Shown here: piece after piece, positions 10,095 to 24,938 of the stretch
How the letters are laid out: every line of letters begins with the position of its first letter
How positions within the stretch are numbered: position 1 is the first letter of the stretch
Source of the DNA: a virus
IMG/VR virus record: IMGVR_UViG_3300047666_000818
Location: 1 to 30,414 of that record
Length of the DNA: 30,414 nt
Strand: one strand, 5' to 3'
Made by a program: the position numbers and the translations under genes
Notes under the pieces: model-generated
What the model was told of the DNA's origin: nothing
Database searches by the model: none
Seen by the model: the letters and a program-made list of their open reading frames with translations, nothing else

Positions 10095-10123
10095 AGTTAT
10101 CAGTTGTGCTCACATTGAGAACA

Positions 10124-10154
10124 TAAATGTATCCTAAAGGGTTACAAATGCAAA
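10124..10154 (-). promoter_or_regulatory. Early leftward promoter, Bacteroidota type
   Basis: On the minus strand TTTG (10154-10151), a spacer of exactly 19 nt, then TACATTTA (10131-10124), a 7/8 match to TAnnTTTG. Transcription should start near 10118, some 24 nt before the ATG at 10094. It lies in the intergenic region shared with the divergent XRE regulator, so repression by that protein is likely. Confidence 0.65.
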
Positions 10155-10196
10155 CCAAAAGTGCGCAGACTTATTAACAATCATATATTGAAAACC

Positions 10197-10532
10197 ATGG
10201 AGATTCAAAAAATCCACGTTGGTCAGTGCGTGAAAAAATCACTGGCAAAACATCCAAACGTTAGTGTTATAACACTTGCAGATCATTTCGGCATGTCGCG
10301 AAACAGTGTGTACAAGATTTTCAAGGCGGAAGACGTTCATTTGAAAAAGCTGCTGAAAATTGCTGATCATTTAGGGGTGACGATCGAAGCCATCCTTGAA
10401 GTGGAAAAGCTTCAGCAGATCAAGGTGACGCCGGGCGAAAAATCAACGGTTTCGAATTTAGAAGATGTGAACCAAAGGTTGACAGGAATTGAAGGAATGC
10501 TTGAAAAAATTCTTTCGTCAACGGCTAGTTAG
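10197..10532 (+). CDS. XRE-type HTH regulator, probable lysogeny repressor
   Basis: 111 aa from the ATG at 10197 (a GTG at 10161 would add 12 residues; the ATG follows an A-rich AAAACC tract and begins at the family's usual point). A helix-turn-helix covers about residues 24-55: VITLADHFGMSRNSVYKIFKAEDVHLKKLLKIADHLGV, the Cro/CI fold. The C-terminal part (DVNQRLTGIEGMLEKIL) is a short coiled coil suited to dimerisation. It lacks a peptidase domain, so it is not a LexA/CI-type self-cleaving repressor. It is on the plus strand next to the integrase and divergent from the early operon, the standard position of a prophage repressor. Its own promoter is not clear. Confidence 0.8.
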   Translation: MEIQKIHVGQCVKKSLAKHPNVSVITLADHFGMSRNSVYKIFKAEDVHLKKLLKIADHLGVTIEAILEVEKLQQIKVTPGEKSTVSNLEDVNQRLTGIEGMLEKILSSTAS

Positions 10533-21028: not shown

Positions 21029-21059
21029 CAAATGTAAACATAAATTTACATATGGCAAG
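21029..21059 (-). promoter_or_regulatory. Accessory promoter, Bacteroidota type
   Basis: On the minus strand CTTG (21059-21056), 19-nt spacer, TACATTTG (21036-21029), a perfect TAnnTTTG -7 box. The predicted start of transcription falls on or next to the ATG at 21024, implying a leaderless message. A palindrome overlaps the spacer. Confidence 0.6.
21032..21051. promoter_or_regulatory. Palindromic operator candidate
   Basis: ATGTAAA-N6-TTTACAT, perfect 7-bp arms, lying across the spacer and -7 element of the accessory promoter. The small HTH protein coded just downstream is the obvious candidate to bind it, giving autorepression. Inference from position. Confidence 0.55.
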
Positions 21060-21882: not shown

Positions 21883-21948
21883 TTGTTAAGGCGTGAATTA
21901 AAAGTAGAAATATTAATACCAGGTTACACATATCCGCTTGTTATGGGC
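21883..21948 (-). repeat. Cassette-end hairpin, downstream copy
   Basis: On the minus strand this begins GCCCATAAC at the methyltransferase stop codon and ends CGCCTTAACAAC, with inner pairing (GCG..GTGTAA / TTCACGC). The 9-bp GCCCATAAC (21940-21948, minus) is the exact inverse of the copy at 22618-22626 on the other side of the gene. It has the layout of attC-like recombination sites, with conserved ends and a variable middle. Confidence 0.45.
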
Positions 21949-22597
21949 AATTACCAAAAAGGCCCGTTTGTAATACATTGTTTTGTTCGTATATATTTAA
22001 GGCACTTTCTAATATTGCTAATCCTATTTTTGGAGGTACGCAATTTCTTAAAAGTTTATCTTTATTAGGGTAATTGTATTTATCTAAATTAAACCCTAAT
22101 TCTTTTAAATTCTCTTTTTTATCACCTCGACTCCCATCCTTTAATTTGTCCATCCTTCCAATTTTAACACCCTCCATTTTTGGGATGTTAAAGTTTGCCC
22201 AAAATAAATGCCTTCCGCTTTCTTGTGCTTCAATTAATGGCTTATAATATGGCTTTACGTTTTCAATAACATATTTACCTTTAAAGAATGTTTGCAGTAA
22301 TATAATCTCACCGTAAAGATTCATATCAGGGTATCTTCTTACACCTTGAGCATTTAAAAAATGGTTTGTTACGGAATGCGTTGGGCAAGGTGGAGAAGCC
22401 CATATAAAATCATATTCCCCATAGTGGTTAAGTAAGTATTCGTGAGCATCCCCAATAATCATTTTATCATTAGGGTACAAATCCTTATAAATGTTTGCTA
22501 TACGCTCATCAAACTCAATGGCCGTAATCTCGTGTTCTTGGCCATTCCATAATTTACGGTTGCCGCCAATGCCACTATATAAATTTAATATCTTCAT
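21941..22597 (-). CDS. Minimal C5-cytosine methyltransferase-like enzyme
   Basis: 218 aa, much shorter than ordinary C5 methyltransferases (300-400). Motif I is NLYSGIGGNRKLW (5-17), motif IV SPPCPTHS with the catalytic Cys at 71, motif VI IENVKPYY (111-118), and the C-terminal NCVPPKIGLAILESAL corresponds to motif X. A separate target-recognition domain is lacking; only a short stretch lies between. It is clearly different from the 361-aa enzyme at 4329. The gene is AT-rich and is bracketed by inverted 9-bp GTTATGGGC/GCCCATAAC ends within hairpins, pointing to recent acquisition as a cassette. The target base is inferred from the Cys motif. Confidence 0.85.
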   Translation of the reverse strand: MKILNLYSGIGGNRKLWNGQEHEITAIEFDERIANIYKDLYPNDKMIIGDAHEYLLNHYGEYDFIWASPPCPTHSVTNHFLNAQGVRRYPDMNLYGEIILLQTFFKGKYVIENVKPYYKPLIEAQESGRHLFWANFNIPKMEGVKIGRMDKLKDGSRGDKKENLKELGFNLDKYNYPNKDKLLRNCVPPKIGLAILESALNIYEQNNVLQTGLFGNCP

Positions 22598-22681: not shown

Positions 22682-23131
22682 TTAATAGGATTGCGCATAT
22701 CTACGGTGTGGATATACATGCAATTCATATTCAGTTTTAAACCTTCCTAACACCGCTTTGATGATGTTTGATCCGCCTCTGACAACCTTGATTTTCTTGA
22801 AAACAAATTGCATTTTCAGTTCTTGTTGGCATAGATCCATCAAGAATTGAAAGTCTGCTGATTTCGAATGCCTGTGGCCAATGATGATTTTTGTTGTTCC
22901 ATCACCTTTGAAACCCGTTAATTTCAGGCGTAGAGTGCGCAACATGATGTTTTGAACAGGGTTGATGTTTTTCCCGAATGAATATTTTCCATTGCAAAAA
23001 CTATGATGGCGCAATGTTATTTCAGCACATGAGACGCGAAAGGCGTTGTGAAACTTGTCTTGATGCATGTCTGTTGCTTTGAGTGAAGATGAAACAATGA
23101 ATGGATTGCGAAAAGGACCTTTGAGCATCAT
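22682..23131 (-). CDS. Unknown basic protein
   Basis: 149 aa, strongly basic and rich in His, Phe and Lys (NGKYSFGKNINPVQ, GHRHSKSADFQFL, HVYPHRRYAQSY). No membrane segment or known motif. I do not recognise it. The start codons ATGATG overlap the TGA of the 112-aa gene. Its stop lies directly against the methyltransferase cassette. It belongs to the unit controlled by the structured region at 23467-23748. A nucleic-acid binding role is possible from the charge alone. Confidence 0.6.
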   Translation of the reverse strand: MMLKGPFRNPFIVSSSLKATDMHQDKFHNAFRVSCAEITLRHHSFCNGKYSFGKNINPVQNIMLRTLRLKLTGFKGDGTTKIIIGHRHSKSADFQFLMDLCQQELKMQFVFKKIKVVRGGSNIIKAVLGRFKTEYELHVYPHRRYAQSY

Positions 23132-23466
23132 CTAAGTTCTGAAAGGTGCGCAACTTGTTTGTTTGCTTCAGCTTGTGACATGTACTGTGCGAACTCTGAC
23201 AACCTTTCCAGCTGTTGAACGTGATCATCATCAACACTGGTTTGATCAGAAATTCGAAGGTTTGAAATCAGTGCTTTCGAAATTAATCCTTGCACAACTG
23301 GCCAATCAACAGATTGCGAAAGTTCCAGCGCAACGATTGGACATTGCCAATTTTTAGATGATTTCAGTAATTCCGCAATTTGGAGCAATCGCGGCATTGG
23401 AATTGAATGAAAAAGACCAACAATTTTTTCTTTGTGGCTGACAGACAAATTGTCTTGGTTTGACAT
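23128..23466 (-). CDS. Unknown helical protein, first gene after the structured control region
   Basis: 112 aa, all-helical, with FHSIPMPRLLQIAELLKSSKNWQCPIVALELSQ and a Gln/Glu-rich C-terminus (QLERLSEFAQYMSQAEANKQ) that could form a coiled coil. I do not recognise it. Its ATG lies 16 nt after a stable hairpin with a UUCG-type loop at the end of a predicted 165-nt leader, so its translation is probably controlled. It is coupled to the 149-aa gene by overlapping ATG/TGA. Confidence 0.6.
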   Translation of the reverse strand: MSNQDNLSVSHKEKIVGLFHSIPMPRLLQIAELLKSSKNWQCPIVALELSQSVDWPVVQGLISKALISNLRISDQTSVDDDHVQQLERLSEFAQYMSQAEANKQVAHLSELR

Positions 23467-23748
23467 AATTCATTGAATATCGCACCCCCGAAGGGTGCAC
23501 ACATTCACGTGAATCACAATGATCCTGTTTGAATAGTCCGCAGCGTATTTCTACCTGTGAAACTCCGGGGGTGCTAAAATTCGTGTGTAATTGGATTTGA
23601 AGGTGTCATTGTTTTGATTCCATAAATGTGTGCACTGCAAATGTAACATTGAATAATTGATTTTTCCAAATCTTTCTTCAATCAGTAAAGAACGCACACA
23701 TTCAATGCTTTAGTATCCGAAAGACTGAAAACTGTAACCCGTAAGGCT
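23467..23748. promoter_or_regulatory. Structured control region of 282 bp between two gene groups
   Basis: No gene. On the minus strand it carries a promoter (23638-23670), then a leader of about 165 nt with three competing pairings: A, 23626-23635 with 23495-23504 (10 bp); B, 23566-23574 with 23482-23490 (9 bp); and C, a local hairpin 23493-23498 / 23482-23487 with a UUCGG loop. A and B cross, so together they would make a pseudoknot, and C excludes both. The 11-mer GCACACATTYA occurs at 23497-23507 (+), 23623-23633 (-) and 23694-23704 (+). A 12-bp palindrome ATTCACGTGAAT is at 23503-23514. Confidence 0.6.
23638..23670 (-). promoter_or_regulatory. Promoter for the 112-aa/149-aa unit, Bacteroidota type
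   Basis: TTTG (23670-23667), 21-nt spacer, TACATTTG (23645-23638), a perfect -7 box. Transcription would begin near 23632, inside the R2 copy of GCACACATTYA, and give a leader of about 165 nt. Confidence 0.6.
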
Positions 23749-24513
23749 TCACGCCTTTTTCCGCTGTTGCATTTCGGCTTCTTTCATGCGCTCAAAATTC
23801 TGTTCGCATTTGACCATTATTTCATAGAAACGTTCCTTTTTCACCTCGCTTGCCTTGCCAAATTCGGCGCCAGCCATCGAAACAAAAAGGCCAATCCAAC
23901 CGAAATCTGAACCTTTGCTTTTCCTTTTGGTGTGCGTTTTAGGGAATTTCTTCACGTAGGCATTCCGGATGCCCCAAAATTCATAAAACACCACTTGTTT
24001 GAAGCGCTGCGGAAGGAAGCGCATGAACTTCATTTGAACGTCTGCAATCCGCCCGTTGAATGGCAATCCGAAAGGTGTGATCAGGCAAGCGCACATTTTG
24101 TTGAATTTCTCCTGTGATTCCTTTTTTTCGCCCTTTTTAACCGCTTCACAGTATTTTATGAATGCTTCATCAGTCATGCCGTATTGCAGCGCCGTGACGT
24201 TGTACAGTGCTGTTTTCGGGCCTCTGAAGATAAACCACCAGCCAGCCGCCGTTTGCATGTGTGATGGCGGTTCTAGCGCCCAACCAAAAGTGGACATTAG
24301 CGCTTGAATTTCAATGTCTGTGATGCTTCGAATGGTGCGTTTCGGAATCTTGCATGTGACATTCAAAAACCTGCGCAATTTCAACTGTTCTAGGTTGTTC
24401 CCGCGTAACAATTCGCAAACAGAAAAATACATTTTGCGGTCACATTCATCCCATTTGGAAGGAACATTGATTTCAAATTTCTTTTCGCCGTGTGTTAATG
24501 TGATGTTATTCAT
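23749..24513 (-). CDS. Unknown phage protein, possible tail-assembly chaperone
   Basis: 254 aa from the ATG at 24513, which overlaps the TGA of the spanin gene (ATGA); a longer frame from 24576 would add a Cys/His-rich stretch overlapping that gene and is unlikely. The N-terminus (MNNITLTHGEKKFEINVPSKW) is beta-rich and the rest helical, with AGWWFIFRGPK in the middle and a basic KKFPKTHTKRKSKG segment before a helical C-terminus. The overall pattern resembles chaperone-like proteins near tail genes in Bacteroidota phages, but no frameshift site or partner frame is seen. Low confidence in function. Confidence 0.6.
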   Translation of the reverse strand: MNNITLTHGEKKFEINVPSKWDECDRKMYFSVCELLRGNNLEQLKLRRFLNVTCKIPKRTIRSITDIEIQALMSTFGWALEPPSHMQTAAGWWFIFRGPKTALYNVTALQYGMTDEAFIKYCEAVKKGEKKESQEKFNKMCACLITPFGLPFNGRIADVQMKFMRFLPQRFKQVVFYEFWGIRNAYVKKFPKTHTKRKSKGSDFGWIGLFVSMAGAEFGKASEVKKERFYEIMVKCEQNFERMKEAEMQQRKKA

Positions 24514-24938
24514 GATCTGTTTTGGCGTGGTATGAATTGGATGATGATAAAAACAGCCATTGCAATCAACGCCCAATTTCGCCAGTTGGTTTTGCGGTCA
24601 ACAACTTCAGGCCGCAGAACTGTTTGTTCAAGAATCACTTCTTTCCAAACGGTATCAGCCTGGCATTCGATTTCAACAAAGATTTCTTTCAGTAAGGTGT
24701 CAACAACCACTATTGCGCGGCCCCGGCCTTTTTCAATTCTGATGGTATCTGTTGTGAATTTCACAACAGTGTCATGAAGCACATTTTCTGTTGTCAAAAA
24801 AACTGTGTCGCGGATTTCATTGATCACCATTCCTTCCTTTAGAATGGAAGGCTTTTTTGCAATTGCTTTTTTCAAATGCCAGTTTGCTGAACAGGATGAA
24901 AAGAGAACTACAATAACACTATACAATACCAACTTCAT
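24510..24938 (-). CDS. Predicted u-spanin (lipoprotein with C-terminal membrane anchor)
   Basis: 142 aa. The N-terminus is a lipoprotein signal with lipobox F-S-S-C, Cys at 16, followed by ANWHLKKAIAKKPSIL. A beta-rich periplasmic part (about 40-115) leads to a single C-terminal hydrophobic segment (about 121-136, NWALIAMAVFIIIQFI) and a short basic end. An outer-membrane lipid anchor plus an inner-membrane helix in one short protein is the architecture of u-spanins such as T1 gp11, which fuse the two membranes at the end of lysis. It overlaps the amidase gene by 20 nt, completing the lysis cassette. Assignment is by architecture and position. Confidence 0.75.
   Translation of the reverse strand: MKLVLYSVIVVLFSSCSANWHLKKAIAKKPSILKEGMVINEIRDTVFLTTENVLHDTVVKFTTDTIRIEKGRGRAIVVVDTLLKEIFVEIECQADTVWKEVILEQTVLRPEVVDRKTNWRNWALIAMAVFIIIQFIPRQNRS

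Follow-up and report, generated by a model that had tools for sequence, protein, structure and literature searches.

A predicted bistable 5′ leader as a plausible cis-regulatory element upstream of orphan phage genes

INTRODUCTION

Does the 282-nt gap upstream of a 112-aa orphan ORF in the virus record IMGVR_UViG_3300047666_000818 encode an RNA leader that acts on the genes behind it, or are its complementary segments better explained in some other way? The preliminary description of this DNA (30 414 nt, the whole stretch analysed, hereafter the window) read the gap as a minus-strand leader with three mutually exclusive pairings, A, B and C, and suggested a possible switch or attenuator. We have analysed the promoter, the alternative folds, their standing against shuffled sequences, the predicted access to the start codon and the relationship to known RNA families. 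Features are listed in Table 1.

Table 1. Features of the locus and of the leader
Feature	Positions	Strand	Description
Leader gap	23467-23748 (282 nt)	minus	between the 275-aa late gene and the 112-aa ORF; holds the Bacteroides-type promoter
275-aa conserved late gene	23749-24576		borders the gap on its upstream side
112-aa orphan ORF	23128-23466	minus	downstream of the leader; ATG at 23466
149-aa orphan ORF	22682-23131	minus	overlaps the end of the 112-aa gene
Putative sigma-ABfr-type promoter	23638-23670	minus	TTTG (23670-23667), 21-nt spacer, TACATTTG (23645-23638); predicted from sequence
Long-range hairpin A	23495-23635	minus	~28 pairs; outer 11 bp perfect (GTGCACACATT/AATGTGTGCAC)
Alternative helix B	23482-23574	minus	12 bp, GCACCCCCGGAG (23574-23563)/CUUCGGGGGUGC (23493-23482)
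Short hairpin C	23482-23498	minus	GCACCC-UUCGG-GGGUGC
Inner irregular hairpin	23531-23565	minus	inside the A loop; GAAA tetraloop, CAGGUA-GAAA-UACGCUG (fold)
D, third copy of the A-arm motif	23694-23703	minus	GAATGTGTGC; about 50 nt upstream of the −7 box

RESULTS

Genomic setting of the leader

The nearest annotated terminase was that of Microcystis phage Mea-Yong924-1 (39.5% identity), and the TerL alignment brought together 60 distant phages. In two related phages (L054 and L068) tail genes stand directly after the homologue of the 275-aa gene, and a third related phage (L057) has no comparable leader; because of this gene order and of the leader's absence from L057 we place the leader at the start of an inserted accessory block of ~4 kb. 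The best explanation of the setting is that the phage is temperate and of Bacteroidetes type, and that the block is a moron-like accessory operon inserted between conserved late genes.

The first gene of the block, the 112-aa ORF, matched no Pfam or PADLOC family, had no significant PHROG hit and gave no homologue; its AlphaFold model was poor (pLDDT 50) and all-helical. For the 149-aa ORF no relative was detected in the collections searched, and the models of both proteins were of too low quality for use. Further along the minus strand a 218-aa protein (21941-22597) resembles C5 cytosine methyltransferases, its match to the Pfam profile being confined to the N-terminal portion. Another promoter of the type seen ahead of the leader (minus strand, TTG at 21058, TACATTTG ending at 21029) follows an inverted repeat of 13 bp whose tail is T-rich (21118-21082), and lies upstream of two small ORFs (62 and 64 aa); we read this arrangement as a second accessory cassette.

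Promoter and pairings

The promoter elements named in the preliminary description, TTTG and TACATTTG on the minus strand, are indeed present at 23670-23638, directly upstream of arm A. For Bacteroidetes-type promoters the consensus TAnnTTTG/TTTG has been described (PMC7366714). A scan with the pattern TTG-N17-23-TANNTTTG returned four minus-strand sites in 30 kb. With transcription starting near 23635 the predicted 5′ UTR is ~169 nt long. In Bacteroides thetaiotaomicron 13.5% of mRNAs have leaders of >100 nt, a class suggested to hold cis-regulatory RNA (PMC7366714), and by its predicted length the present leader would belong to such a class. Inside arm A there is a minimal ORF on the minus strand (23606-23623, ATG GAA TCA AAA CAA TGA), for which a role as leader peptide is conceivable but unsupported.

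All three pairings exist exactly where they had been described. The core of A joins GTGCACACAT (23635-23626) with ATGTGTGCAC (23504-23495); in the predicted fold A is longer, joining roughly 23635-23601 to 23495-23526 in a stem that contains small bulges and two U-G wobbles, and these two U-G pairs maintain the stem on the minus strand only. The core of B joins GCACCCCCG (23574-23566) with CGGGGGTGC (23490-23482). Hairpin C does lie next to the start codon, at a distance of 15 nt from its end to the ATG rather than the 16 nt given earlier.

Alternative folds

The mutual exclusivity claimed for the three pairings stood in part. B and C exclude each other completely; A and C, on the other hand, share only four nucleotides and can coexist, their joint fold being predicted at −49.2 kcal/mol and the best fold at −51.8 kcal/mol. 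It had also been suggested that A and B, if both formed, would make a pseudoknot. Geometry argues against it: the linker (23494-23491) would need to span most of the ~28-bp helix, and because 4 nt are too short for a full-length A helix, A and B are in practice alternatives, with no pseudoknot. The folds containing them are predicted to be near-isoenergetic (A, −51.8; B, −48.6). To that extent ‘possible switch’ was a fair description, but the features through which a switch usually acts are absent.

When transcription is taken to start at 23635, the Boltzmann ensemble gives A a probability of 0.95 and B one of about 0.01; with 75 nt of the real upstream sequence added the B state reached 0.90, and some other transcript ends gave mixed ensembles. 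At first sight copy D, which could pair with A5 in a read-through RNA or could be a third operator, appeared to be the specific cause of this refolding. This impression was weakened by a control: since shuffled upstream sequences gave B >0.5 in 152 of 300 cases, the origin-dependent shift is not specific to D. As modelled, the shift to B would be mostly a consequence of two nearly equal folds. With respect to retained pairing, the locus was within the lowest 2.7% of random loci.

Copies of the A-arm motif around the promoter

Could the repeated motif act as DNA rather than as RNA? Exact copies of AATGTGTGC occur at 23694-23703, 23624-23634 and 23495-23506; they are the only three in the window and all fall within 212 bp around the promoter. 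The A arms carry AATGTGTGCAC, and the only other 11-mer in the window that matches the A-arm motif with one mismatch is AATGTGAGCAC at 10106-10116. This site is located in a 66-bp gap (10095-10160) between a divergent 101-aa gene and a gene for a C1-like HTH protein (10161-10532), a lysogeny-switch gap where operators are expected, and on its position and letters it is a candidate repressor operator.

One could suppose that the phage repressor or a local regulator binds the AATGTGTGC copies, one of which lies upstream of the promoter, one at it and one downstream; with two of these sites oppositely oriented, the RNA pairing would then arise as a side effect. The clustering of the copies and the lysogeny-switch site speak for it; nevertheless, the inverted repeat continues to ~28 pairs, past the shared 11-mer, and contains U-G wobbles when read as minus-strand RNA, B and C are left unexplained, and by our own estimate a one-mismatch match would turn up by chance in 30 kb about half the time. 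We regard operators as an unlikely explanation, albeit one that deserves serious attention. A mobile element with terminal inverted repeats was considered as well and rejected, as no target-site duplication was present at the ends.

Comparison with shuffled sequences

A simpler possibility is that an AT-rich promoter gap happens to contain complementary segments with no regulatory role. Folding was better than in shuffled sequences, with a z-score of −2.3 for 196 nt and of −2.9 to −5.0 for 150-nt windows in register (30 shuffles). The plus strand folded about equally well, as any inverted repeat does on both strands. Arms of 10 bp were reached by only 2.2% of local shuffles. In the duplex energy ranking of the minus strand of the 30 kb, A was fourth (−38 in register, −35.9 on the scan grid) and the B site sixth (−32.5); the best duplexes of shuffled genomes had values of −33 to −40. 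Two such high-ranking duplexes sharing one intergenic gap is above what is typical but not overwhelming: moderately unusual, not compelling.

Several counts point the other way. Exact arms of at least 10 bp within 150 nt numbered 8 in the window versus 8.25 in shuffles, and long-loop helices of at least 20 pairs were equally common in shuffled genomes. The frequent refolding with shuffled upstream sequence and the failure to find a homologue (see below) also favor chance. Given the in-register z-scores, the ranks of A and B within the same gap and the rarity of 10-bp arms in local shuffles, we consider a chance origin rather improbable, though still a serious rival.

Start codon accessibility and transcript ends

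Hairpin C has no U-tract (the letters that follow it are GATATTCAATG), and no terminator was called at 23498-23482. The predicted accessibility of the start region (−20 to +15) was 0.41-0.46 for local starts and about 0.3-0.5 for read-through RNA; it was about equal in the A and B folds (mean unpaired about 0.3-0.5), and neither fold clearly hid the ribosome binding site or the start codon. A classical terminator or attenuator is therefore unsupported, C having no U-tract and the start codon not being clearly hidden by either fold.

The same data bear on the idea that the locus produces an independent small RNA of ~155 nt, in which A would close the 5′-end and C would form the 3′-end. Such an RNA would have its 5′ arm at the expected transcription start, C on its 3′ side and a compact inner hairpin with a GAAA loop. 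Yet C ends in no U-tract and is not called as a terminator, the 112-aa gene begins 15 nt after it, and no Rfam family was found at the cut-off. We think a small RNA of this kind quite improbable.

Search for relatives

Homologues of the leader and of the 112-aa and 149-aa genes were not found in the collections searched; hunts with the leader, the 112-aa, 149-aa and 275-aa proteins and the portal gave nothing or only distant matches. The leader was absent from the 60 distant TerL-related phages. A covariance model of the leader alone had the leader as its sole match when run against 1 Mb of related phages, and no match among 395 genomes.

We observed a single similarity of another kind: the start of a 366-aa ORF (L120, 1501-1543) aligns with the leader around 23627-23587 at 86% identity over 44 columns. 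With one such match in 395 genomes and the sequence being A-rich, the similarity is probably due to chance. By eye, the product of this ORF may resemble AbiC-like abortive-infection proteins.

Rfam gave no match in the window at the gathering cut-off. The best sub-threshold match of the region was to DUF3800-I (RF02969), with 21.5 bits against a cut-off of 44.2 bits and an E-value of 0.4 for 321 nt, a level at which matches are expected by chance across window and library. It reflects 17 nt of the inner hairpin that are identical to the first DUF3800-I hairpin, an identity we judged to be chance. A scan of viral and genome contigs with this 17-mer recovered genuine DUF3800-I loci, mostly from Firmicutes. 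The TTAAG core (GTTTAAG-type), invariant in 21 genuine members, is absent from the window, as are the U-tract and the 5′-terminal position of the hairpin. A model built from these 21 sequences gave the leader 28.2 bits versus at most 13.9 bits in 1 Mb of other phages, a score biased in favor of the leader as the sequences had been picked for the shared 17-mer. No DUF3800-I RNA above cut-off was present in 395 genomes on the Bacteroidota side, and no DUF3800 gene among the proteins scanned. With core and U-tract missing and the score far under the cut-off, we rejected the leader as a member of this family; that the phage carries a diverged DUF3800-I RNA here, e.g. as a decoy for a DUF3800 system, is highly improbable, the leader's top Rfam match and its score with the 21-sequence model notwithstanding.

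DISCUSSION

Our best account of the locus, held tentatively, is a promoter followed by a structured, predicted-bistable 5′ leader of an accessory phage operon. We favor an A/B bistable leader because a promoter-like sequence lies upstream, the fold is better than in shuffles and both A and B belong to the most stable duplexes of this strand; the account is weakened because no homologue was found and the accessibility of the start hardly differs between the folds. Weighing a genuine switch, repressor sites and partly chance pairing together, we consider a cis-regulatory leader plausible.

If the leader works as predicted, a transcript from about 23635 would form hairpin A (~28 bp) at its 5′-end and hairpin C immediately ahead of the start region, while RNA polymerase arriving from the upstream late genes would make a longer RNA able to form the D:A5 pairing and the B helix. 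Helix A may be a substrate of RNase III. The likely effect would be on the stability and processing of the leader, and through these on how strongly the 112-aa and 149-aa genes are expressed. The analysis itself shows the pairings, the match to the promoter consensus and the bistability as a prediction; that the region is transcribed, processed by an RNase and has a regulatory effect is inferred. One could go further and speculate about a leader that senses the transcription start: RNA from its own promoter would keep the long hairpin, late-gene read-through RNA would be refolded by the upstream arm copy, and expression of the accessory genes would differ between lysogeny and lytic growth with no ligand or protein involved. 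We give this specific scheme little credence.

Leaders with start-site-dependent hairpins are known from T4 gene e, soc and I-TevI (PMC3014915, PMC2988022). As in these cases, the promoter is placed so that local and read-through transcripts could fold differently before the gene. In T4, however, the hairpin of the read-through RNA hides the ribosome binding site or the AUG, which neither fold clearly does here; furthermore, here it is the local transcript that keeps the large hairpin, and the evidence for the folds is computational. Aeromonas phage 25 has a stable hairpin ahead of its seg43 gene (PMC2988022). The present leader likewise places a strong hairpin shortly before, rather than on, the start region of an accessory gene, but a bistable partner helix was not described for seg43, and the phage lineage and the gene are different.

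Transcription attenuators combine competing long-range and short hairpins in the leader with intrinsic terminators that carry a U-run. The present leader shares with them the competing hairpins, unlike them it has no U-tract after C, and its short ORF (23623-23606, the only one considered) has no run of regulatory codons. With DUF3800-I RNA it shares 17 nt of the first hairpin and a GC-rich hairpin downstream, and it differs in the missing TTAAG core, U-tract and 5′-terminal hairpin.

There is no categorical novelty here. At present the leader is a single locus with no relatives found, and the searches made returned no described counterpart in Bacteroidetes-type phages. If real, it would represent control of an accessory gene by RNA folding in a Bacteroidetes-type phage and would extend to such phages the start-dependent logic of the T4 type.
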